NCBI GenBank assembly: GCA_021234155.1
Contig: JAJEKV010000011.1
Coordinates: forward strand, 1,738,001 to 1,802,000
Reading direction: 5' to 3'
Source: Isoetes taiwanensis
Taxonomy: Eukaryota > Streptophyta > Lycopodiopsida > Isoetales > Isoetaceae
DNA length: 64,000 bases
Below the pieces are notes generated by a model. The model did no database searches. It saw only the letters and a program-made list of their open reading frames with translations, and was not told the DNA's origin. The position numbers were made by a program, and so were the translations under genes. The first letter of the stretch is position 1; the number at the start of each line of letters is the position of its first letter. This document shows, piece after piece, positions 42 to 60,360 of the stretch.

Positions 42-2338
42 TTGTTTGGACGTGAACAGGACGACAACAATGAAGAAATGATGGTGCAGACAATTAATGC
101 AAGGCTCAGGCAAATGAGGAACCAGATGCACCAGCTGATTCACTGGGCAACCCCATTGATGAACGCTCAAGAATATGGACCACCACCACCACCTCCACCA
201 CCACTACCAGTGCAAGGCATTGAGGAGCCAGAAGGGGAAGACAATAAGGAAAATGTCAGAGACAGGAAGAGAAAAAGGAGAAGCAGAAAGAGCCCAACCC
301 CGGGGGGTGCACCTATCATATAGGGGGTACCACATGTGCGTGCAAGGGGTCGCCGAAAACCCCCTTGTATACGCCTTAGAAATCTTCCAAAAACCCCCAT
401 TTCAGCCACATATTGAACCAGAATCACCTAAAAAAAGCCCCCTCGGTAAGAGTATATGTATGGTTCAAGTCCAAAATAAACCCTTTTGGGTCACTCACAT
501 GAATTGTACGGCTATAACTATGTGAACCCCCCTTGAGCCCAACACCATCTAGCTCCAGCATATCAGACATTTCTGGCAGCCAGGACAGTTCTAGCTCAGA
601 GAGTGAGTTCGATACATCACAGATAAGGACCAAGGCAAGGAAGACAGATGACTATCAGAAGAAAGTGGATAGTGCTATGAGCAACGTATGGAAGACTAGG
701 AAGTTGGGTCAATTTTCACGGAAAGACATGTCGGGCATGGAGGCAGAAGCTTGGCTGGATGAAATGGAAGAGTTTGGTAATTCTTATGGCATGAAAGACA
801 AAGATATAGGGAAGGTTGCTACAGCCAACTTAATAGGACCAGCAAGAATATGGTGGAAAGGGTACGCGAAGTCCAATAAGCTGAGAAGAAATAGTTGCAG
901 ATTTAAGACCTTCAGCAAGGCCTTTCGAAAACATTATGTGCCAAGATCACACACTAGCAGGCAGATCCAGCAGTTCTACAGGCTAGACCAGGGGAACCTA
1001 TCAGTAGCCAAGTACATAGAGGCATTCATGAGACTCAGGCTCAATGTCCCCAGGATCTCTGAAAGGCAAGCGGTGGACGGGTACATTGAAGGGTTGAACA
1101 ACAACATCAAAAGACTAGTTCGAGCAATCAACCCAAGGACAGTCGGAGAAGCCGAGGACAAGGCTTTGAGTTTGGAGGAAGCACCAGTAATTCCAAGGCA
1201 GAAACAGTTACCATTCAAGGGTAAAACAATAGGGCAGTATCAAGGGCAGTATCAGAATAACCAATCAGCAACTACGCCAGCCGGAGGCCAACATCAAGGG
1301 AAAGCTCAGGGAAAGCCCTTTGGAGACCGTAGGCCACAAAATGGATTAGGGGGCAGTTCGCTCAAGCGTCTTTTAGATAGCATTCCAAGGGAAAAGAGGC
1401 AAGAATGCATTGAAAAGAAGTTGTGCTTTAGGTGCTTCCAGCCAGGGCACCGAACGCACGACTGTCCATTCGTCATGCAGGCAGCTTTGGCAGAGATTGC
1501 AGATTGGGATTCACCAACAGAAGGAGACAACGAAGAGGACGACCAACAGGAAGCGCAAGATTTCATAGATGGTGAGTGCCATATTTGTGCAGCTATTGAG
1601 TCAGGTGATGTTGAAAATCAGTCCACAGTCATTGCGGCTGAGGGAATCATAGATAGCAGTCCATGCCTAGTCTTGATAGATACAGGTAGCTCTCATAACT
1701 TTGCCTCTCCTAGGCTGGCTGCCCTAATGAAGAATAAAGTCTTGAAGTCTAAGCCAAGACCAGTTAGCATGGCAAGTGGTGCCATTCGCCACACTAAGGG
1801 GAGGAGGATCACGTTTGACATAGACCTTAGTGGAAGCAAGTGGCCGATGGGAGCAGAGGTCATGGATATTGGAAAGTATGACCTTATAGTAGGAATGGAG
1901 TTCCTAAAGCCAGCTAAAGCGATGATTGACTGCGAGCGCAACGAGATCTCTATGACGGCGCCAGACGGCAGCAGATTTATAGTAAAAGGTAAGAAGGTAG
2001 CTTCTCCTATGCAATGCATTTCTATAAAGCAGCTAAGGAAAAATATAGAAAGAAATAAGGTGGATTATATTTTGAGGTTAGATGCAATTGAATCAACTAA
2101 AAAGAAGGGAAGTAACCTAAGTGGAAATCAGTTGCCCAAGCCAGTAGCAAGGCTCATTAGGGAGTTCAATGATGTATTTTCGAATCAAATCCGGCAGCTA
2201 CTACCTTATAGGGGTGTAGAGTGTGAAATCACACTAGCTCCAGATGCTAAGCTTACCAGCAAGGCACTTTACAGAATGAGCACCCCCGAGTTGATTGAGC
2301 TCAAGAAGCAGCTGCAGGAGTTGCTTGACCTTGGATAA
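42..2338 (+). pseudogene. gypsy gag-protease polyprotein, split by a MITE
   Basis: The N-terminal part (42-301) is a coiled-coil-like leader with a polyproline stretch and a basic end. The second part (from about 546) holds a Ser-rich linker, a retrotransposon gag domain (motif GPARIWWKG near residue 100 of the second ORF), a CCHC zinc knuckle CFRCFQPGHRTHDC near residue 300, and an aspartic protease with the DTGSSHNF active-site loop and the later IVGME strand. It ends just after YRMSTPELIELKKQL, the usual start of gypsy RT, followed by a TAA at 2338. The two parts lie in different frames only because of the insertion at 302-534; subtracting 245 bp puts them in one frame. Function in the element: capsid/nucleocapsid and polyprotein processing. 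This copy is not expected to work as it stands. Confidence 0.85.
302..534. mobile_element. Small MITE inserted in gag, about 233 bp
   Basis: The insert begins with GGGGGGTGCACC and ends with GTGAACCCCCCTT, giving imperfect terminal inverted repeats (GGGGGGT-CAC). It is flanked by a near-perfect direct repeat, GAGCCCAACCCC at 290-301 and GAGCCCAACACC at 535-546 (11 of 12 identical). A target duplication of 9 bp or more fits Mutator-like elements best, although the G-run makes the exact border ambiguous. It has no coding capacity. Its presence explains the break between the gag leader and gag body. Confidence 0.7.
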
Positions 2339-43815: not shown

Positions 43816-46052
43816 CTACATAGATATCTTTACCCTGGCTTGGGGGATCCCAGAGATGTGGTCCCAAATGACGGATTTCCTTTCAGGGTCCGAGAAGATG
43901 GGATCACGCAGTAAGCACACCTTATTGCATAGTAACTGTGCAAAAATCCTGCCCCTTATAAGGAAGACTAGGGAAAATTTGGAGTGGGTTTGTCTCGTAT
44001 GATCCTCCACGGAATAAGATGGGATCTGTTCGTGAGTGGTCTGAATCGACGGGAAGTTGTAAAATCTTTCATACGTTACAAAACTGAAGCAGCCTTGTTA
44101 AGAAACATTGTTCACATATTGAGTAGTGCATATGGAGTAAAATTTTATAAAATCCATCATTTAGAGCATGGGTTGACAAATCATTTCGGGATAAATTGCC
44201 TACTATTGTATAAGATGACAACTTTAGAGAGGCTAGAGATGCCAATCAGATAGTATTCTCCTCTTATCAAGTCTAGGAATAAATGTTTCATTTTATTATA
44301 TGTCAGTTAAAGGCCAAACGTTTTGCATTCAAAACAAAGGGGACTACCACGAGAAATACATTATAAACATAGCAATATTTCGATAATGCACTGGTTTCTA
44401 TCTCAATGTGTGTATTTTTGTATCTAGTTTCGTTATCCTTACTAATGCGTGAGTGACTATTTTACTAGAAAAAAATGATTTTGACTATGGCAAAACACTA
44501 TCTACCAATGGTAAACAGTTTTCCTTGGACATGTCTTATCTTTTCATGGAAAATGTCAATCTGAGTTCCTAGCTGGCCAACATTTTACTAATTTTCCCTT
44601 TTTAAACCAAGTGTTCCACTATAATGAGAAGAAAAAATCATGTTTTTTTGTTGATTCTACTCGCCATTACTGGATAGTACATGCAAAATAAATTTTAAAG
44701 ATTTTTTTGGTTAGCAAACACATGCTGGAAGAAGTGTCAAATTCAATTGTACAAGAGTTGTTTTTTCTTATCTAATCTAGAGGTAGCTTCTATAGAAAAC
44801 TAAGATTCTATTTTTACATATTGCAGTTTTTTTGGTTGATATACATTTGAAAGGAAGCAACCGCCTGCTTTAGATTAGATGTGGCAACAGTTCTGGATGC
44901 CAAGTGCGAAGAAAATATAGTTTAGGAAGCTCACTCCTCTATGGTACAATGCCACGTGTGATTGAAAGGTGTAGTTGACCAACTACAAATCCACAATTGA
45001 GTATTCAGTTATTTGCAAATTTTATCCTGATTATGGTAATTGACAAAGGTATGGAGGAATTGGAAATGCACGATTTAATTCAGGTTGCAATTGCAAGAAC
45101 TCTTGCACAGCTTTGAAGGAAGTTTAGAAATTCAAAACGCAAATGTGGGGCAGGGCTTCAAAAGAGCTTCTAAGCCTTCACACCCTTTCTCGTTGCATCA
45201 GCTGATTTAATATTTAATATATAAGGATTGAAATACAACTGAGCTTGGACCCCCATTAGCCTAGATTCCATCATTGTGAGTTCGACTTTACTTTCTTTCA
45301 AAACGTGTTTTAGATTGTTAACTTTCAAGGACAAGGGCAATGTTCAATTTACCAATTTGGGTCGTATCATTGCGAAAAATAGTGTATAGCATAAAGATGA
45401 TAGGGAAATCACAAAATAACTTGCATAAACACAATGAAATGCACCCCCTACACCTCAGGGGAAGGAATACAAGATGAGTGCATCAAATATGTAGCATAAA
45501 AATGAGAGGTAATCACAATGCAATGTGAAAACATGTACAAGATCAAATAGGTTGCTTTAACATTGATCATCGATCAAACAATTATAAATACAAATGACTG
45601 ATCTAAAGTGCACCTAACAAGCTCCATGAAGGAAGTCTTACTAGGCCATCATTTCCTCATCATCTAGTATGAAATATATATGAAGCATCCAAGGTTTTGT
45701 TGCATGCCATAACATTATCTAGTCTTTTCTATATTGGCTTGTATTAGTAGAGTAGTTGATGATGACAAAAGAAGTTAGCATTTTCCATGTTTTCAATCTC
45801 ATATTTGATGCAATTTTATGTTTATGCTTTTGAACGCGCCATGTTTAGATGACTCAACTATCTCATACAGTGTCAAAAGTGTTACTACCATCATCAATTT
45901 ATCCTTGACTAAACCTTCACACAAGCATTAAAGAATACCGCCTCTTTAAGAGAATTATACTAACATAGAAGTTTTATAGACAAATTCGTGTAACATGCTT
46001 AATAGTCCTATGAAATAAATAAAAATCAATGGACCTACTCTAAAAATGCTTG
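43816..46052. other. AT-rich spacer, no gene seen
   Basis: Short ORFs only, without domains. No repeat or RNA gene was recognised. Confidence 0.5.
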
Positions 46053-47498
46053 TGATATGGTCTGTAGGGTATGGGATAAAGCCTTGGAAAGGTTGGGCCC
46101 CATTGGATAATGATTTCCTTGAAAAATTTGGCCATCTGATGTATTGGTTTATCACTAGGGATGACATTGTATAACATTTGGTATCAGAGCTAAGATTTAA
46201 TTCCTCATGGCAACATTAGTGTATTCCACATGCTTGAGGGCAAGCATCTCGAGGAGGGGAAGGAATTGATATTGTATGTGGGGTATGGGATAAAGCCTTG
46301 GAAAGGTTGGGGCCCATTCGATAATAGTTTCCTTGAAGGATCTGCCTTTCTAGTGTGTTGGTTATCACTAGGATGACAATGTACAACATTTGGTATTAGA
46401 GCTAAGGTTCAATTTCTCGTGGCAACATTGGTGTGTTCCACATGCTTGAGGGCAAGCATCCCGAGAGGGGGAGGAATTGATATGGTCTGTGTGCCTAGGG
46501 GTATGGGATAAAGCCTCATAGAGTGGGGGCTCATGAAGGATCCGTCCTTTTGATGTGTTAGTTATCACTAGAGGTGCTAGTGCATAACATTTGGTATCAG
46601 AGCTAAGGTTTAATTCCTCGTGGCAACATTGGTGTGTTCCACATGCTCGAGGGCAAGCATCTCGAGGGGGGAGAGGAATTAATATAGTCTGTGGGGTATC
46701 GGATAAAGCTTTGGAAAGGTTGGGGCCCATTGGGTAATGGTTTCCTTGAAGGCTCTCCCCTTTTGGTGTGTTGGTTATCATTAGGGATGACAGTGTACAA
46801 CATTTGGTTTCAGAGCTAAGGTTCAATTCCTCGTGGCAACATTGAGATGTTCCACATGCTTGAGGGCAAGCATGCCTAGGGTTATGGGATAAAGCCTCGT
46901 AGATGTTGGGGCTCACTGGATAATGATTTCCTTGAAGGATCTGCCCTTTTGGTTTGCTGGTTATCATTAGGAATGACAGTGTACAATATTTGGTATCAGA
47001 GCTAATGTTCAATTCCTCACGGCAACATTGGTGTGTTCCACGTGCTTGAGGGCAAGCATCTTGAAGAGGGGGAGGAATCGATATGGTCTGTGGGGTATAG
47101 GTTGGGGCCCATTGGATAATGATTTCCTTGAAGGATCCGCCCTTTTGATGTGTTGTTATCACTAGAGGTGCTAGTGCATAAGTACATTTGTGGGGGTATA
47201 GGATAAAGTCTCATAGAGATTGGGGCTCATGAAGGATCCGCCCTTTTGGTGTGTTGGTTATTACTAAAGGTGCTAGCGCGTAACATTTGGTATCAGAGCT
47301 AAGGTTGAATTTCTCATGGCAACATTGATGTGTTCCACATGCTTGAGGGCAAGCATCTCAAGGAGGGGAAGGAATTGATATGGTCTGTGGGGTATGGGAT
47401 AAAGCCTTGAAAAGTTTGGGGCCCATTGTATAATGATTTCCTTGAAGGATCCGCCCTTTTGGTGTGTTGATTATCACTAGGGATGATAGTGTACAACA
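46053..47498 (+). mobile_element. Tandem array of TRIM retrotransposons (8 LTR-like units, 6 primer sites)
   Basis: Units of about 200-215 bp repeat head to tail. Each has a 112-124 bp LTR-like block starting TGATATGGTCTGTGGGG and ending GT(A/G)(T/C)A(T/C)AACA, two T's, a Met-tRNA primer site TGGTATCAGAGC, about 75 bp of spacer (TCGTGGCAACATTGGTGTG, GAGGGCAAGCATC) and a polypurine tract (GAGGGGGGGAGGAAT). LTR blocks start at 46053, 46267, 46478, 46680, about 46871 (5' end lost), 47079, about 47190 (joined to the previous block) and 47376. Primer sites lie at 46179, 46391, 46592, 46805, 46991 and 47287. The last block ends at 47498 with no primer site, as a 3' LTR should. Flanks GCTTG/TCTTG could be a worn 5 bp target duplication. 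There is no coding capacity. Confidence 0.88.
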
Positions 47499-50400
47499 TC
47501 TTGTGCTATTACAATATCCTTCTTTCAATGGAACTCCTCGCCACTGTTCCACCTTTTCCCCAAGCTTGCCTTACTGTTAGTTTTTTTTTTTTTGTCTCTC
47601 AAGTTCAGTGCTTATTTATTCGTCTTTCAACAATTTGAGATGAGTCTCCACAATTTGTTCAAGCTTTTCAGTTTCTTGAAAAACTTTGCATTCAATTTTA
47701 GCTAGAAATTTATCCTTTGAAGTGGTTTGCAGCTATAATTTAGTCAAAAGCTCGTTCTGCACTATAACTTCAAAATAGATGTGAAACACTTTCTCTATTA
47801 TCAGTAATTCATGCAATGATATGGACAATTTGTCAAGGTACTCTTATTCTCTTGCTTAATGGACACTGCAAATTAGTGCCACATTTGATTCAACCCAAGA
47901 ACTGCAAAATGCGTGTCGTCAAGTTGCCATGACAACAAATATGGAACCTTATGTGTTGAAGAGTGACAACACTAGATAAACTGTGAAATGCTTGAATGAT
48001 AGTTGCTCTTAGAGGATGCATGTCTCATATACTCTTGGGAGCAATAATTTTTTAAATAGAACCATGCAGAAGGACATGCACATCATTCTGCATCATCCGC
48101 TCTGTCGATGCCCCAAATTCTGCAACAAGCACAATCTCAACCGTCCACGTGGTAGTGATCTATGACTGAAAGTAGGCGTCGGGTCCTTTGTGTGGGCCAG
48201 AAAATGGCCAAGAGAGAGGGCCTTTCCCCTACATGAAAGATCACTTAGGTTTTCTCGCATCCTCCACCATAAGAAACTAAGGTGTGCCCAAAATAACAAC
48301 TCAAACAAGGTGCTGCGCACGGAGGGTTGCCCTCCAGTTTCTTGAGGGTGACGTGGCCTAAATCAAACCGTGAAGTCATGTTTTCACAATCTATATTTAA
48401 ATTAAGGTAGACCCCTACCATGTTCTTAAAATCAGTTTGTAGGTCCCCTACATTCATGTACAAGCCCGTTCAGTTCACTGGACGTTAATGAAAATACTAT
48501 GAACCAAGAAAATCATGGAGCAGAGAAGACTATGCTAACCGCCACAAGAATATAGTTATCAAGCATAGCCATGTGGATGGTGGTAATTTTCTTACAAGCT
48601 CTTGCTTTGTAGTATTTTAAGTTTAAGAAAATAAAGATTCCTTTCCTGGAGATGGCTTTTGATGAAAATCTGAAGATTTGTTTGACTTGGCGGACAGTGA
48701 AATCTACCCTTAGGAAAATATAAAGCTAATGGCTAAATTCTCCACTCAATACTGGTCCTTTAGTTCAGTTATACAACACCTTGACAGTGGTGCACAATTG
48801 AGCATTGCATGAAAACCTTGGTAGAAATGGCTATTTTGTTTGGATGCACGACGGTTGCATTGCTTATTCAGGGTTTGTTTGGGGAACTCAAACGAAGTAG
48901 CCACTACTCTCCGGTTAAAATGAAATATCAAGCCTATGGTAATCATAATAGAATCCAGGATTTGACTATCATTTGTATCATGCACCAAGTCCTACAGGAT
49001 TAAATAAAATATCAAGCTCATGGTAATCACAATAGAATCCAGGATTTGGCTATCATTTTGAATCAAGTATTAAATATTAGCTCTCATTCCATAGAAGACG
49101 TTTTTGCATGTGTTTTTTTCAATGCAGAAGTGATAGCTAGATTACTAAGTAGCATAAAATTAACCAACTTTCAGGACTATTAATCAGTGGATGTTTGTGT
49201 ATGCAAATAAGTTATTGTTTGTAAGATCCAAATATAGGTTTCGAATTCAAAATACAAAGAATTATCATGTAACAAGCTAGAGAGAATTTTGGACTAGAAT
49301 TATATAGCAAATAGTTGTAATACTAGGTAACATACATATCATAATATATATATACAAGTTTTTGTACTATGAATGGGTTCGTGAGCTATGATTTATGAAG
49401 ACGCGGAAATAAAATCTTGGCTTAAATGGATTGGAATACACTGAAAGAGTCGAATTTAGTGGAATCCTCATACAACGATTGAAGATCTAAGCGGATTAAG
49501 AAATCCTAAAGGATCTAGAAGAATCTTCAAAGGATCTTAGACAGTCTAAGGATATATTAACATCCCTTTATAATTCTCATTCTTTCAAATTCCATAAAGA
49601 TTCCAACATTATCTAGAAACATTTGCATTTGTCACTGTTATTCTATTCTACATAACCTTGGATTTGTTTTTGAGGCCACAGGTGTTTCGACACATGTTAT
49701 ATTGCAAAATAACATTCTCACCGAGAAAATGTTACCTTTTGGGAACTGGCAATTTCTATACAAAAGATTGTCTACGCATTGGGTGGGTACATGCGCATAC
49801 TATAAACATAAGTTCGTACATGCACATACTATAAACATAGGTTCGTACATGCACATACTATAAACATAGGTTCGTACATGCACATACTATAAACTAGACG
49901 TGGCCTTCCTCTCTTGTTATTCAATTCCTGAAGGCTTTATAAAACATGGATCTAGCATTATTTTGCTTCCCTAGAAGGCAAAAACTTTTAAAATCAATTT
50001 GTTTTGTGCGTTTACATAGTTGCTTAAATTTGTCATTTTCAAGTCCTTATAGCATTTCCTTGGTCCTTTCTTATGTTGGATTTGCCTTGTAAATTTTAGT
50101 GTATTGCATCTTTCACTTCCTAATGGACCCAAAAGCAAAAGCAACGTGTACTATCATAATTGACAATTTGAATGACAATTTTCGTTGAAATGTGATGTTT
50201 TCTTAACTTTTTCGACGTTATAAATCCATATTTTCACCTATAAAAAACTTTTTGTTGATCAACAAGCAACAAAGCCACATATCACATATCAACTAGACTA
50301 TTACTTCTTTTGAAAGGAGTAACAAACCTACAAAATTACCCGTGACCTTTGTCCCCACAACCTTTATGTATTACCAAACCATTTGACTACCACCACAGTG

Positions 50401-54445: not shown

Positions 54446-57163
54446 TCACCAATAATCTCCACATGAACATTTCCCATCTCCAAAGTGATGAAAGCGATTA
54501 GCATCTCTCATAATGATTTGCCGTCCTTCTATCTTTGAAATTAACTTTGTCACTGTATGGCAGTCGACACAGACCCTAAGATTCTTGACAATGCGTAGAG
54601 TGGTTCCACTGGAAGTAGACAGGAGCCCAAAACTTATTGCCAGTTTCTCACTATGATAACCAAGCAACGTTTCTTTGGTCTCCTCATCCAGATCATGCAA
54701 AACTGATGATGTATCAGGCACATACCCACACGCATCTAATTGCCTATTCAAAAGTTTCAGCCTCGCATAGATGGCTTCCTTCATTGGATGGGAGTCATCA
54801 CCAACCAGAAAGGTATGAACCTGATTACCAATCTCAATTGAACTGCACCCCGGTTCCTTCTTTATGCCTCTTTCCACCATAAGCTTTCTAATACGTGCAA
54901 CATCCACCCATCTACCAGCTCTAGCATATATGTTGGACAAAACAACATATGCGGCAGGATTATCTGGGTCCAACTTGAGGACCTGTTCTGCAGCAATCTC
55001 ACCTCTTTTAACATCACCGTGAATCCTACAAGCAGCTAGGAGAGCCATCCATACAACAGCTATATCTTCATAAGCTGTATCCCTAATGAAGGCATGCGCC
55101 TCTTCCAACTGTCCTGCACGACCCAGAAGATCAACCATGCAGCCATAATGTTCAGCTGTCGGTATGATGCCATAATCTTTGACCATTGCATCGAAATAGC
55201 ATTGTCCCTTATTAACAAGGCCTGCATGACTACATGCATATAAAATATAGACAAATGTGATATTATCGGGCTTCAGACCCTGCGATATCATTTGCTGAAA
55301 CAAATCCAGTGCCTCCTTACCAAATCCATGTTGTGCATACGATCCAATCATTGTACTCCAGGTCACAACATTGCGTTGATGCATTTGATCAAATACTTTT
55401 CGCGCATCCTGCAAGCTACCACATTTAGCATACATGTTAATCAGGGCAGTACCAATCATGATGTCTGATGAATATTCATGAGATACAATCATGTCATGGA
55501 ACAGCTTTCCAGCGTTCAAAGAGGATATGCTTGCACAAGCATCAAGAGCAGCAAGGAAAGTGATTGCATCTGGCTGTGCATGCGCGCATTCCATTTGCTG
55601 AAAGAGTTTTAGGACTTCTCTGCCATGCCCATTCTGGGTGCACACGGAAAGCATGGCATTCCAAGATGCCACAGACCTTTGAGACATTTTATTGAATATC
55701 AATTGTGCATGTTCCAAGCTACCACAATTACCATACATATTTATCAAAGCATTACTGACTATCATATTAGCCGTGCATTCATTATTGACAATAATAACGG
55801 CATGAATCAATAAACCATTTGCTAAATCACTGATACTACGGCACGAACTTAGGGCATTAATGTAGGTCACCTGGTTCGCCCTGACATCTTCAAGCTGCAT
55901 ACAACGCAAAAGTTGAAGGGTTTTGCCAGAGTGATTCTTATACGCATATGCTGCAACCATGGCATTCCAAGATATAATATCTCGTTTAAATAATCTGTCA
56001 AACACAGTAGATGAATATTCTCCATTTCCCGACTTCCCGTACATGTTAATAAGAGCATTTCCAACAGTGCTATCTAATTGATAGCCAGATGCAATGATGC
56101 AAGAATGGACCATCTTGCCATCTGCCTTACCAGAACATGCCGCCAGAGAGTTAATGAAGGTCACGCTATCTGCTCTTACATCACCTATTTGTAATTCAAG
56201 TAAACATTCCAGTGATTGTTTGGCATACCCTGCCTTTGCATATGCTGCAATAATGGTGTTCCAACATATAATATCTCTATGCTCCATCTTGACAAACAGG
56301 GTATGTACATCCATTAGACTCTGACAATAACCATACATATGGAGCAAGGAAGTTATCAAGACCATGTCTGATTGCAGCCGACCATGCATAATGGCAGCAT
56401 GGACAAACTTTCCCAAAGCCATCTTAAATGAGCATAGTCTAAGAATGTTAAGGAACGTTACTTTATTTGGCTCCATACCTTTTTCTTGCATCTGCCATAG
56501 AAGTTCTAAAACATTATCACTGCCATGCTGAGCATAAATTGCTATTATAGCATTCCACGAAACTATATCCAATTGGGTAATCTTGTTAAAGACCGCATGC
56601 GCATTGATGATACCTCCACATCTCCCATACATGTTCGCAAGAGCAGTTCCAACAACAACATCTGACTCATACATCGTGTCAGCAACGTGAGCATGAATCC
56701 GCTCAGCTTCTTCCAGCGATGATAAGCTAGAGCATACATATAAGATAGCAATTACACTTGACCTATGCAATTTAATTCTTCTTGACCACATTTGTTCAAT
56801 CAAATTCAATGCATTGTTCAAATAACCACATCGAAAAAGCGCTACTATCACAGTATTCCAAGAGTTTATACTTGGATTTACCATTTGAGCAAACATTTTT
56901 GATGCATGCCCGATGCTGTGCCATCTGCAATACATCTCCATAAGCTGGACAAGTATGTTCTTCTCAAGCCCATATTTAATGCTATCAGCGTGTAACTGCT
57001 TACCTTTTGCTAGTGAATTAAGTTCAGCAAAGCACCACGCATTTCTTGTAATCTTCTGCGCGCATTCATCATGTGCTAGGTGCTGAATACTCCTCTCCAT
57101 TCGTATCTCTGGAAAAATATATTTGTAATATCCAAGGGTCTGGTCCTTTCCTGATCCACACAC
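54446..57163 (-). CDS. PPR protein, PLS class with complete E and DYW domains
   Basis: An intronless frame of 905 residues. PPR motifs run from about residue 50 to 680 (for example SWNTVIVALFRCGYLNNALN, SWNAIIAIYAQHGSDNVLEL, VTFLAALDACASISSLNAGK, NMYAKCGSLQDARKVFDQM). The E1/E2 region follows (AEHYGCMVDLLGRAGQLEEA, LSNIYARAGRWVDVARIRKL), then the PG box EPGCSSIEI and a DYW domain with HSEKLA (the HxE zinc/catalytic motif), CVDCH, and the terminal CSCGDYW. DYW domains are cytidine deaminases that edit C to U in organelle transcripts; in ferns some act in the reverse direction. The final DYW tripeptide is intact. The first Met is a guess: MERSIQHL at residue 22 is an alternative, and no clear transit peptide is seen. 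Its 5' end lies 237 bp downstream of the next PPR gene on the same strand. Confidence 0.9.
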   Translation of the reverse strand: MCGSGKDQTLGYYKYIFPEIRMERSIQHLAHDECAQKITRNAWCFAELNSLAKGKQLHADSIKYGLEKNILVQLMEMYCRWHSIGHASKMFAQMVNPSINSWNTVIVALFRCGYLNNALNLIEQMWSRRIKLHRSSVIAILYVCSSLSSLEEAERIHAHVADTMYESDVVVGTALANMYGRCGGIINAHAVFNKITQLDIVSWNAIIAIYAQHGSDNVLELLWQMQEKGMEPNKVTFLNILRLCSFKMALGKFVHAAIMHGRLQSDMVLITSLLHMYGYCQSLMDVHTLFVKMEHRDIICWNTIIAAYAKAGYAKQSLECLLELQIGDVRADSVTFINSLAACSGKADGKMVHSCIIASGYQLDSTVGNALINMYGKSGNGEYSSTVFDRLFKRDIISWNAMVAAYAYKNHSGKTLQLLRCMQLEDVRANQVTYINALSSCRSISDLANGLLIHAVIIVNNECTANMIVSNALINMYGNCGSLEHAQLIFNKMSQRSVASWNAMLSVCTQNGHGREVLKLFQQMECAHAQPDAITFLAALDACASISSLNAGKLFHDMIVSHEYSSDIMIGTALINMYAKCGSLQDARKVFDQMHQRNVVTWSTMIGSYAQHGFGKEALDLFQQMISQGLKPDNITFVYILYACSHAGLVNKGQCYFDAMVKDYGIIPTAEHYGCMVDLLGRAGQLEEAHAFIRDTAYEDIAVVWMALLAACRIHGDVKRGEIAAEQVLKLDPDNPAAYVVLSNIYARAGRWVDVARIRKLMVERGIKKEPGCSSIEIGNQVHTFLVGDDSHPMKEAIYARLKLLNRQLDACGYVPDTSSVLHDLDEETKETLLGYHSEKLAISFGLLSTSSGTTLRIVKNLRVCVDCHTVTKLISKIEGRQIIMRDANRFHHFGDGKCSCGDYW

Positions 57164-57399: not shown

Positions 57400-60360
57400 T
57401 TATGCCAGATTCACATGAATGTTGGACAATGTAATAAATGCTGCAGCATGTAATGGATCAAACTCGAGCACTAATTCTGCTGCATATTTCCCACGCTGCA
57501 TATCCCCATGCATTCTGCATGCTCCAAGAAATGTGACACAAACTAAAAGATTAGGCCTAACAGGCATCTCATTGAAGAAATCGTCAGCCTCGTCCAAACT
57601 TCCAGATCTCCCTAAAAGATCCAAAAGGCACCCAAAACTTGCTATTGCTGGTACAATGTTATAAGTTTTGCTCATCAACAAAAAATACATAATTCCTTCA
57701 TCTATTTTACCAGCATGACTGCAAGCGGACAAAACACCAATAAAGCTTATGCTATCTGGCTTTACTGCATCCCTGTGCATATGCCAAAAGAGATTGAGAG
57801 CTTCATCCCCATAACCATATTGAGCATAAGATACAAGTATTGCATTCCACGACATGACATTACGATCAGACATGTTATCAAACACCTTCTGTGCATCTGC
57901 AATACAACCACATTTACCGTACATGTTCACAAGAGCAGTCCCCATAACCACATCAAGCTCAGGTTGTGAACAGATTACCAAGGTATGAATTAGTTTGCCC
58001 TCCATGAATGCCGCTATGCTAGAACATGCATCAGCAGTGTTAATGAAAGAGATCATGTCTAGCTGTAAACCTTCCTGACGGGCTTCTCTAAAGGACTGCA
58101 GAGCTTTCATATTTTGACCGTTGTAAGAGTATGCTGCAATCATGGCATTCCATGATCCTACATTCCTCTGATGCATACATTCAAACACTATAGTAGCATC
58201 ATCTGCACTTCCAGACCTTCCGTACATGTTTACAAGGGCATTTCCAACAACAGTATCCAGTGTAAACATCTTGTCGACCATGTATGCATGTATCAATTTA
58301 CCCTCTGCCAGAACTCCGGAGTGAGAGCATGCATTAAATGCGGCAATAAATGTGATTGTGTCCACACAGGTGCCCACTGAGAACATGTGATGAAAAATTT
58401 TAAGTGCTTCCTTCTCATGTCCATTCTGGATAAAAGCCGCAATCAAGGCATTCCATGATATAACGTCCCTCAGTCGCATGCTGTCAAATACACTTTGTGC
58501 ACCTGACAAGAACCCACATTTTCCATACATGTTGATTATGGCATTGTACAGAATTATATCAAATTGGACCCTGCTATGAATAATAAAAGCATGCATTAGG
58601 ATACCCGCTGTTAGAGAAATGGGATCACTGAATGTTCCGAGGATACATACAAAAGTAACCTTATCTGGGACTGCCCCAGACAATACCATTTGCTGAAAGA
58701 GCTGAAGTGCCTCCCTAACATGCCCATGTTTCATATGTGCTGCAACAATGGTATTCCATGACATTAAATCAAGTTGATCCATATTAAAAAATACTCTGCA
58801 TGCATCATCCAAGTTGCCACAATTGCTATACATGTTGACCAAGGCAGTCCCCACATACTCGAGAACATCAAACATACACTCGATTGAAAAAGCATGAACA
58901 AGTTTTCCATCCATTACATCCACTGGTGCGCAACATGCCTCTAAACTAGTCATAAAGGTGATATTGTCTGGCTGCAATCCGACCAAAATTAACTGGTGGA
59001 AAAGCATCATAGTTTCTTTTCTAAATCCCTGATGGGCATATGCTGATAACATAGCATTCCACATGACTATGTTTTCATTGGCACCTTTGTCAAACACCAT
59101 GCGTGCAGCGCTCACGTTGCCACATTTGCTGTACATGCTGATAAGAACTGTTCTAACAAGGTCAATGGTGTTGAAGTTATTTCTAATTGTGTGTGCATGG
59201 ACCAACTTGCCAGCTTCTAAGCTAGTAGACGCATCAATCATATTAATGAAAGTAATTTCATCTGGGCTTATGCATTCTTCTTGCATGGCCTCAAACAATT
59301 CAAATACGTGCTTGGAAATTGTAGAGCGAGAATAAGCACCAATCATGGAAGTCCACGAAATAACATTCTTTTTGGGCAATTTATCAAAAGCCGCATGTGC
59401 ATCTTCAAGACTTCCACATTTGCTGTATGCAGTAATTAGGGCTGCTATGACAGCACTATGTGATTCATAATCGTTATAAACAATGTACTTAGAGATGTAC
59501 CGAATTTCTTGTAGTGTCATAGGACAAGATAGAGCTGTTATAAAAGAGATCCTATCTGGTTTTATGCATTCGTGTACCATTTGGCAAAATAGTTCAAAAC
59601 TATTCCTTGCATCCCCATGTTTGACATATGTTCCGAGCATTGCATTCCAGGATATGACGTCTTTTTCTGAAATTTTGTCAAATACAGCTCGTGCTTTCGC
59701 ATGGTTTTTGCATCTTCCATATATATTAATTAGAGACGTTCCTACAACGGCATCTGATTCGTAGCCAGTGGCATATGCATGGGCATGTACGACCTTAACT
59801 TCAGCTGGGGTTATTGAATAAACATGCGCATTCAAAATGGTAATGAAGGTAACTTTATTTGCTTGTATCTGTTGTTGCCTCATTTGTGCCAGAATTTGTA
59901 AGGCATCCTTTCCCTGGCCATTCTGGACATATGCAGAGATAACCCGGTTCCATGAGATAACACTTGGGTTATGCACGTTGTCAAATGCTTCACATGCGTC
60001 TTGTAAGCTCTCACACTTGTGATACATTTCTACAAGCCGATCCCCTAAGTTTGAGTCTTGTTGGAGGGCGCATTTGATAATATGAGCGTGAACTATTCTT
60101 CCTTCTAGGAATGCTTTGGCACTGCCGCAACTTCTCAACAGGCAAACATAGTCTGATAGTTTTACGTGAATATGTTCTTGATTTAAACATCGAATTGCCT
60201 CTTTTATTCGTCCTTGCCTGGCTAAAGTCCTAACATCTCCAACGCTTTTTACAGTAGTAGCTAAAATTGAAACGTTTCCGATACCCCTCTTACTACAGAC
60301 ACAACAAAAATGCGACCAACCCTTACTTCTGTCTACAAACATAAAGAAGTATTGAAGCAC
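57400..60360 (-). CDS. Large PPR protein, PLS class ending inside the E domain
   Basis: An intronless frame of 986 residues. After a basic, hydrophobic N-terminus that could be an organelle transit peptide come more than twenty PPR motifs (SWNRVISAYVQNGQGKDALQ, VTFITILNAHVYS, SWNAMLGTYVKHGDARNSFE, SWNTIVAAHMKHGHVREALQ, SWNAILVSYAQYGYGDEALN). Near the end E-type sequence appears (ASFGCLLDLLGRSGSLDEAD, VTFLGACRMHGDMQRGKYAA, AAAFITLSNIHVNLA) and then a stop, exactly where LSNIYA.AGRW would continue in the neighbouring gene. E2, the PG box and DYW are missing and not visible in the 237 bp before the next gene. It may bind RNA and recruit a DYW protein in trans, or be a recently truncated gene. 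Confidence 0.88.
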   Translation of the reverse strand: MLQYFFMFVDRSKGWSHFCCVCSKRGIGNVSILATTVKSVGDVRTLARQGRIKEAIRCLNQEHIHVKLSDYVCLLRSCGSAKAFLEGRIVHAHIIKCALQQDSNLGDRLVEMYHKCESLQDACEAFDNVHNPSVISWNRVISAYVQNGQGKDALQILAQMRQQQIQANKVTFITILNAHVYSITPAEVKVVHAHAYATGYESDAVVGTSLINIYGRCKNHAKARAVFDKISEKDVISWNAMLGTYVKHGDARNSFELFCQMVHECIKPDRISFITALSCPMTLQEIRYISKYIVYNDYESHSAVIAALITAYSKCGSLEDAHAAFDKLPKKNVISWTSMIGAYSRSTISKHVFELFEAMQEECISPDEITFINMIDASTSLEAGKLVHAHTIRNNFNTIDLVRTVLISMYSKCGNVSAARMVFDKGANENIVMWNAMLSAYAHQGFRKETMMLFHQLILVGLQPDNITFMTSLEACCAPVDVMDGKLVHAFSIECMFDVLEYVGTALVNMYSNCGNLDDACRVFFNMDQLDLMSWNTIVAAHMKHGHVREALQLFQQMVLSGAVPDKVTFVCILGTFSDPISLTAGILMHAFIIHSRVQFDIILYNAIINMYGKCGFLSGAQSVFDSMRLRDVISWNALIAAFIQNGHEKEALKIFHHMFSVGTCVDTITFIAAFNACSHSGVLAEGKLIHAYMVDKMFTLDTVVGNALVNMYGRSGSADDATIVFECMHQRNVGSWNAMIAAYSYNGQNMKALQSFREARQEGLQLDMISFINTADACSSIAAFMEGKLIHTLVICSQPELDVVMGTALVNMYGKCGCIADAQKVFDNMSDRNVMSWNAILVSYAQYGYGDEALNLFWHMHRDAVKPDSISFIGVLSACSHAGKIDEGIMYFLLMSKTYNIVPAIASFGCLLDLLGRSGSLDEADDFFNEMPVRPNLLVCVTFLGACRMHGDMQRGKYAAELVLEFDPLHAAAFITLSNIHVNLA

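Follow-up and report, generated by a model that had tools for sequence, protein, structure and literature searches.

How did a chain of non-coding repeats with a long terminal repeat (LTR) at each end come to stand head to tail at one site in the genome of Isoetes taiwanensis, and from how many element lineages were its LTRs drawn? The chain, ~1.4 kb long, occupies positions 46053–47498 of the window, a 64,000-nt stretch of contig JAJEKV010000011.1, and a preliminary description made from the letters alone had read it as a concatemer of a miniature LTR retrotransposon (TRIM). A profile search resolves it into eight LTRs and six internal segments in one orientation on the plus strand (L8I6), with LTRs of 103–124 bp and five intact internals of 89–90 bp; blastn gave seven LTRs and six internals, missing LTR7. 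The array opens with an LTR, whose first letters are TGATATGG, and closes with one ending ...ACAACA, whose terminal CA at 47497–47498 is followed by TCTTG and by no primer site. The eight LTRs, their sharing between neighbouring units and the LTR at either end are thus as first described, but alternation is not strict, because LTR6 and LTR7 abut.

From left to right on the plus strand, the a-type LTR1 (46053–46176), a member of an array-private clade, is followed by internal 1 (46177–46266), with a tRNA-Met primer site at its 5' end and a polypurine tract at its 3' end, and then by LTR2, also a-type (46267–46388), and internal 2 (46389–46477), whose primer site has one change. LTR3 (46478–46589) is b-type, with a 17-nt deletion and a 7-nt insertion common to other loci, and precedes internal 3 (46590–46679), the a-type LTR4 (46680–46802) and a truncated internal 4 (46803–46870) without a polypurine tract and with one primer-site change. 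LTR5 (46871–46988), a probable mosaic of a b-like 5' part and an a-type 3' end, has lost its 5' end and is followed by internal 5 (46989–47078). LTR6 (47079–47182), of the ordinary family type, has an internal gap; it runs into the b-type LTR7 (47183–47285), which lost its 5' end at this junction and whose first ~10 nt are a junction remnant. Internal 6 (47286–47375) and the terminal, a-type LTR8 (47376–47498) complete the array.

Four of the six internals keep the 12-nt primer site TGGTATCAGAGC unaltered, and I2 and I4 each show one change in it; all six begin with TTTGGTATCAGAGC or with a variant differing at one position. The tract lies directly before the next LTR in five internals and is lost in I4, so that of the two signals originally ascribed to every internal only the primer site is universal. 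Two deletions had been suspected within the array, and both scars are real: at ~46870/46871, where I4 meets LTR5, the tract and the LTR start are gone, and at ~47182–47193, between LTR6 and LTR7, ~4 nt of internal are left. The early estimate of ~120 bp for the LTR agrees with the 122 bp of the family, and the absence of coding capacity is borne out by a 90-bp internal. An antisense open frame of 264 aa crosses the array on the minus strand (window 46368–47162); it is probably due to chance, and Pfam returned nothing for it at E 0.001. Elsewhere, the window carries a retrotransposon frame encoding gag and protease of the Ty3 type (533–2338, plus strand), a 29-bp tandem repeat of 3.7 copies (49787–49894) and two long frames for PPR proteins on the minus strand (54446–57163, with a DYW domain, and 57400–60360).

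Could such a structure be an ordinary minisatellite whose likeness to a TRIM is fortuitous? Tandem Repeats Finder does describe 46693–47059 as two copies with a 186-bp period, yet relatives of the array are dispersed through the genome as individual elements. A search of the 1.66-Gb genome returned at least 54 matches, the array included (40 of 1239 candidates scored), and 597 places match a 31-nt core of the LTR at ≤1 mismatch, while the reversed control has none. The monomer measures 334 bp (LTR, 122 bp; internal, 90 bp; LTR, 122 bp; L021 is an example). The first search yielded 18 monomers, of which 11 are flanked by exact 5-bp target duplications; in 11 the two LTRs are identical (L025, not a monomer, is excluded). 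Our second sample, meant to be less biased, comprised the first 40 loci not yet fetched among the 100 exact core matches listed of the 597, and being drawn from these it leans to young copies; it contains 26 monomers, five solo LTRs and nine partial or complex loci, with L079 and L087, which have common flanks, not independent of each other. Exact 5-bp duplications flank 12 of the 25 monomers with both ends readable (15 match at ≥4/5 bases) and three of the five solo LTRs, as against 1.9% exact and 3.1% ≥4/5 matches when the sampled flanks are paired at random. Solitary LTR-internal-LTR copies, whose lack was to have spoken for a minisatellite, are thus common, and with their exact duplications they leave that explanation virtually no chance of being right. 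The array belongs to a genuine transposable element family, a TRIM.

Other places in the genome have parts of this structure. Seven (L114–L120) carry the same tract and LTR start and have no match to the TRIM LTR at E 1; two of them, L116 (C1069:3795800–3796700) and L117 (C952:12328900–12329800), have weak similarity to the TRIM internal (E 4e-4 and 9e-8) and perhaps represent a related family. L107–L109 have only the LTR end and the primer site in common with the TRIM. At C233:105–144 kb and C1094:1.67–1.70 Mb (L118) the tract-plus-LTR-start motif occurs several times in a short stretch; its spacing on C233 is often a multiple of ~2 kb and perhaps reflects another element's tandem repeat.

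A primer-site match to the 3' end of a tRNA is expected once CCA has been added. A pattern written for the plant initiator tRNA matches the genome at 102 places with ≤3 mismatches, while its reversed control matches nowhere, and ARAGORN called tRNA-Met (CAT) at both of the loci retrieved. One of these, L121 (C971:1145400–1148000), holds three tRNA-Met genes within 2.6 kb, and positions 6–25 of the internal profile fall antisense on the last 20 bases of all three. Each score is weak (E 0.2–0.4) and the genes are near-copies of each other; we base the primer assignment on the identical, exact register at all three. Compared by eye, the 3' end of the L121 tRNA with CCA added agrees over 16 nt with the majority primer site of the family. 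The primer site thus suggests that TRIM reverse transcription would be primed by initiator tRNA-Met. Matches to this isoform cluster at C971:1.132–1.225 Mb, C534:306–322 kb and C1021:5–49 kb, often ~650 bp apart.

The array is flanked by GCTTG on the left (46048–46052) and TCTTG on the right (47499–47503), which agree at four of five bases in plus-strand reading. This agreement is in keeping with the original suggestion of a single worn target duplication, and we regard such a duplication as possible. Neither flank led to a second copy of the site in the plant's own genome (11 of 11 candidates, and 40 of 1687 candidates scored), hence no empty site is available from which to read the original target. 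Window positions 48303–48700 are a repeat with up to 99% identity elsewhere in the genome (40 of 1687 candidates scored).

To characterize the LTRs we compared those of the array with 237 LTRs from other places. Position 110 is A in LTRs 1, 2, 4, 5, and 8 and position 111 is C in LTRs 1, 2, 4, and 5; either state occurs in only one of 229 LTRs elsewhere. The 20-nt end motif of the a-type has three matches in the genome at ≤1 mismatch, all in the array (LTRs 1, 4, and 8), with LTRs 2 and 5 differing more from it. LTRs 3 and 7 have a different 5' half with the 17-nt deletion; their b-type core is present at seven other places, and they have a five-site haplotype together with this deletion in common with LTRs at other loci. 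The 7-nt insertion of LTR3 recurs in five of the 237 outside LTRs. In LTR5 a b-like 5' part is joined to an a-type end, which makes it look like a mosaic of the two types. LTR6 combines states that are ordinary for the family and has diverged less than any of the other seven, at 4/104 sites from its nearest outside LTR; in the same columns LTR8 differs from full-length family LTRs at 8/104 sites, LTR4 at 14/104, LTR2 at 15/103 and LTR1 at 16/104. Each of the four possible pairings of a 5' part with a 3' end is represented in the eight LTRs; at least one recombination, or else recurrent mutation, is needed to account for this.

A tree of 64 LTRs over 105 columns, from which the deletion columns and LTRs 5 and 6 were omitted, places LTRs 1, 2, 4, and 8 in one array-private clade (support 99/93) and LTRs 3 and 7 in another together with 13 b-type LTRs of other loci (97/87). 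The 17-nt deletion, although kept out of the tree, agrees with this grouping. An AU test of the six window LTRs as a single clade gave a borderline p of 0.0565, which is no rejection, with the bootstrap not settled. With the reservation that this test imposes, the groupings show several LTR types in the array. Because LTRs 3 and 7 fall into an outside lineage, LTR5 resembles a mosaic and LTR6 is ordinary, more than one element lineage probably contributed LTRs. The internals give a more uniform picture: all six have T at position 15, found in 12 of 130 others, so that they look to be of one origin or homogenised. Near neighbours have rare states in common, LTRs 1 and 2 at position 83 and LTRs 2 and 4 at position 60. 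LTR1 and LTR8, at the two extremities, differ at 18/123 sites as against 15 in three other a-type pairs, and this distance gives no sign that the two ends of the array were made together. The a-type LTRs differ among themselves by 12–17%; their mean corrected distance (LTRs 1, 2, 4, and 8) is 0.154, against a median uncorrected LTR-LTR difference of 3.2% in the 26 sampled monomers, which argues that the array is old on what is a relative scale of dating only.

Do other chains of the family tell how such structures form? Among the first 20 array-like loci retrieved (L001–L020), four (L005, L006, L016, L019) have exact outer duplications; L016 and L019 have common flanks, leaving three events. 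L006 is a plain L3I2. In L005 and L016/L019 an LTR is joined straight to another LTR with loss of ends, a joint that would be expected from end joining before integration but also from later deletion. Identical LTRs within arrays (LTR1 and LTR3 of L001; LTR2 and LTR3 of L004) point to recent exchange in place. Joining before integration and exchange in place are thus probably both at work in the family. Two candidates for a long helper element were discarded: L060 looks, from its LTR pairs only, like a 6.95-kb duplication that holds a TRIM, and L061 like a ~4-kb tandem duplication of a TRIM 3' part with its flank.

A search for elements with the LTR end and primer site of the TRIM but another internal led to L122 (C1078:12363400–12371200), a copia element in which both LTRs (~715 bp) end in a TRIM internal and a TRIM LTR. 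RVT_2 and SH3_retrovirus domains were found in two of the three pieces tested. The two joints coincide in a 20-nt stretch of LTR end plus primer site, from which a simple element on C1037 differs at one base. This element, the nearest relative of L122, has simple LTRs of ~508 bp with two differences in 507 positions; its first LTR is immediately followed by a primer site. The TRIM piece is absent from the LTR end at all 10 related copia LTR places examined (five contigs, the C1037 pair included). Nor did a literature search, by title and start of abstract, find a report of copia LTRs that terminate in TRIM sequence. The two LTRs of L122 differ at 39/500 sites in their upstream part and at 3/203 in the TRIM part (Fisher 0.0007); this contrast argues that the TRIM part did not simply arise together with the remainder and speaks against a single reverse-transcription origin. 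The flanks have ATATGT in common by eye, six bases rather than five. As read from its sequence, L122 shows different elements joined at a common primer site. Two further places have related features. At L123 (C1100:4086000–4091000) a TRIM internal and LTR are followed by a primer site and unrelated sequence, with one TRIM LTR in 5 kb; at L130/L131 (C907:44074150–44079800) both LTRs of a copia element are followed by a primer-site-like internal start, as in a tandem copia array.

The history that we favour, and consider likely, is that of an old, eroding tandemly arrayed TRIM (TA-TRIM) with mixed LTR lineages that integrated once, was lengthened in place and suffered two deletions. The TRIM would have integrated with 5-bp target duplications by means of another element's enzymes, probably those of a copia, and the 4/5 match of the flanks makes one integration the most likely case. 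The LTRs of the second lineage and the ordinary LTR would have been either joined in a multimer before integration or acquired by later exchange with other copies, an order and a route that we infer. Recombination among the array's own LTRs may then have lengthened it, giving rise to the private clade and the mosaic LTR, and the array suffered its two losses of sequence. The private clade and the mosaic LTR5 indicate exchange inside the array, and the small divergence of LTR6, given where it stands, is better accounted for by later exchange than by a single founding multimer. Of the earlier idea of one insertion that expanded, the single insertion is likely; expansion from a lone monomer accounts poorly for LTRs 3, 7, 5, and 6, which are of several types. 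Transposition of the finished array was not seen either: the I4–LTR5 junction occurs once in the genome at ≤3 mismatches, and a truncation in L008 that resembles it has different breakpoints.

How strongly do the data speak against simpler histories? Were the array derived from a single monomer purely by unequal crossing-over in place between identical LTRs, all LTR types would have arisen within it. The private clade of LTRs 1, 2, 4, and 8, T15 in all six internals, the rare states of near neighbours and an AU result that leaves one clade possible would agree with such an origin. However, the two LTRs of a monomer are identical at birth, so that exchange in place alone should not import a foreign lineage, and LTRs 3 and 7 are linked to other loci by their haplotype and deletion, as is LTR3 by its insertion; we judge this origin distinctly unlikely. 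At the other extreme, a mixed multimer might have been built before integration, through template switching in the course of reverse transcription or by linkage of extrachromosomal DNA molecules, and have entered the chromosome in one piece with every unit already present. Mixed and mosaic LTRs are what this would produce, L005 and L016/L019 combine exact outer duplications with end-less LTR-LTR joints, and the copia element with a TRIM internal and LTR at the end of both LTRs is joined at a common primer site. Against this, the a-type clade, private to the array, suggests that lengthening happened at the site, and LTR6 suggests later exchange; the composite's LTRs are far more diverged upstream than in the TRIM part, and the LTR-LTR joints may also be later deletions, so that insertion as a finished whole appears unlikely. 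A broader proposal is that multimers of the family are made off the chromosome by joining different elements at the boundary of LTR end and primer site, whether by template switching or by recombination involving one-LTR circles; the array would then be a fossil mixed multimer and the TRIM-copia composite a product of the same reaction. We put this forward tentatively, as having a small but real chance of being correct; if true, the joints would record which elements, the TRIM and its likely helper, were packaged together.

Judged from the portions of three papers that describe them, the array is a further example of known TA-TRIMs (PMC4717578, PMC4528315, PMC7215508). Its eight shared LTRs around six internals exceed the minimum of three LTRs, separated by internals, that marks such an array. 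TA-TRIMs such as Zma-SMART are likewise head-to-tail arrays of short non-coding LTR elements with shared LTRs; the account given of them lists 129 subfamilies in 35 of 43 plant genomes and examples with one outer 5-bp duplication (PMC4717578). By description, the named examples there reach L5I4, whereas the present array is L8I6, with two deletions and LTRs of at least two lineages. The maize TRIM Wukong is described with arrays of up to seven LTRs, whereas ours has eight that are strongly diverged; its authors favour recombination between elements and note a copia-like relative (PMC4528315). Cassandra has the same alternation of LTRs and internals and the primer site TGGTATCAGAGC, with arrays of up to 13 LTRs by PCR, and both in-place recombination and template switching are proposed for it; as characterized there, its units are almost identical, in contrast to the 12–17% among the a-type LTRs (PMC7215508). 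Cassandra carries a 5S rRNA-like sequence in its LTR; no counterpart is seen here, as window 44000–50000 gave no Rfam match at the gathering score. Tandem LTR-retrotransposons of rice likewise have shared internal LTRs and one outer duplication, and in the first case LTRs only 85–89% alike are nevertheless read as one insertion; in that account they are not called miniature, and gypsy is noted as more prone to tandem arrangement (PMC11899658).

Taken by itself the array is unremarkable, a decayed member of its kind. Whether tandem LTR elements originate by exchange in place or as ready-made multimers was left open in the 2025 rice study (PMC11899658), and distinguishable LTR lineages are markers by which the two can be told apart. 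The same genome also contains LTR copies in the hundreds, a TRIM-copia composite and arrays whose target duplications are exact. The mixing of TRIM lineages in one array thus bears on how such chains form.
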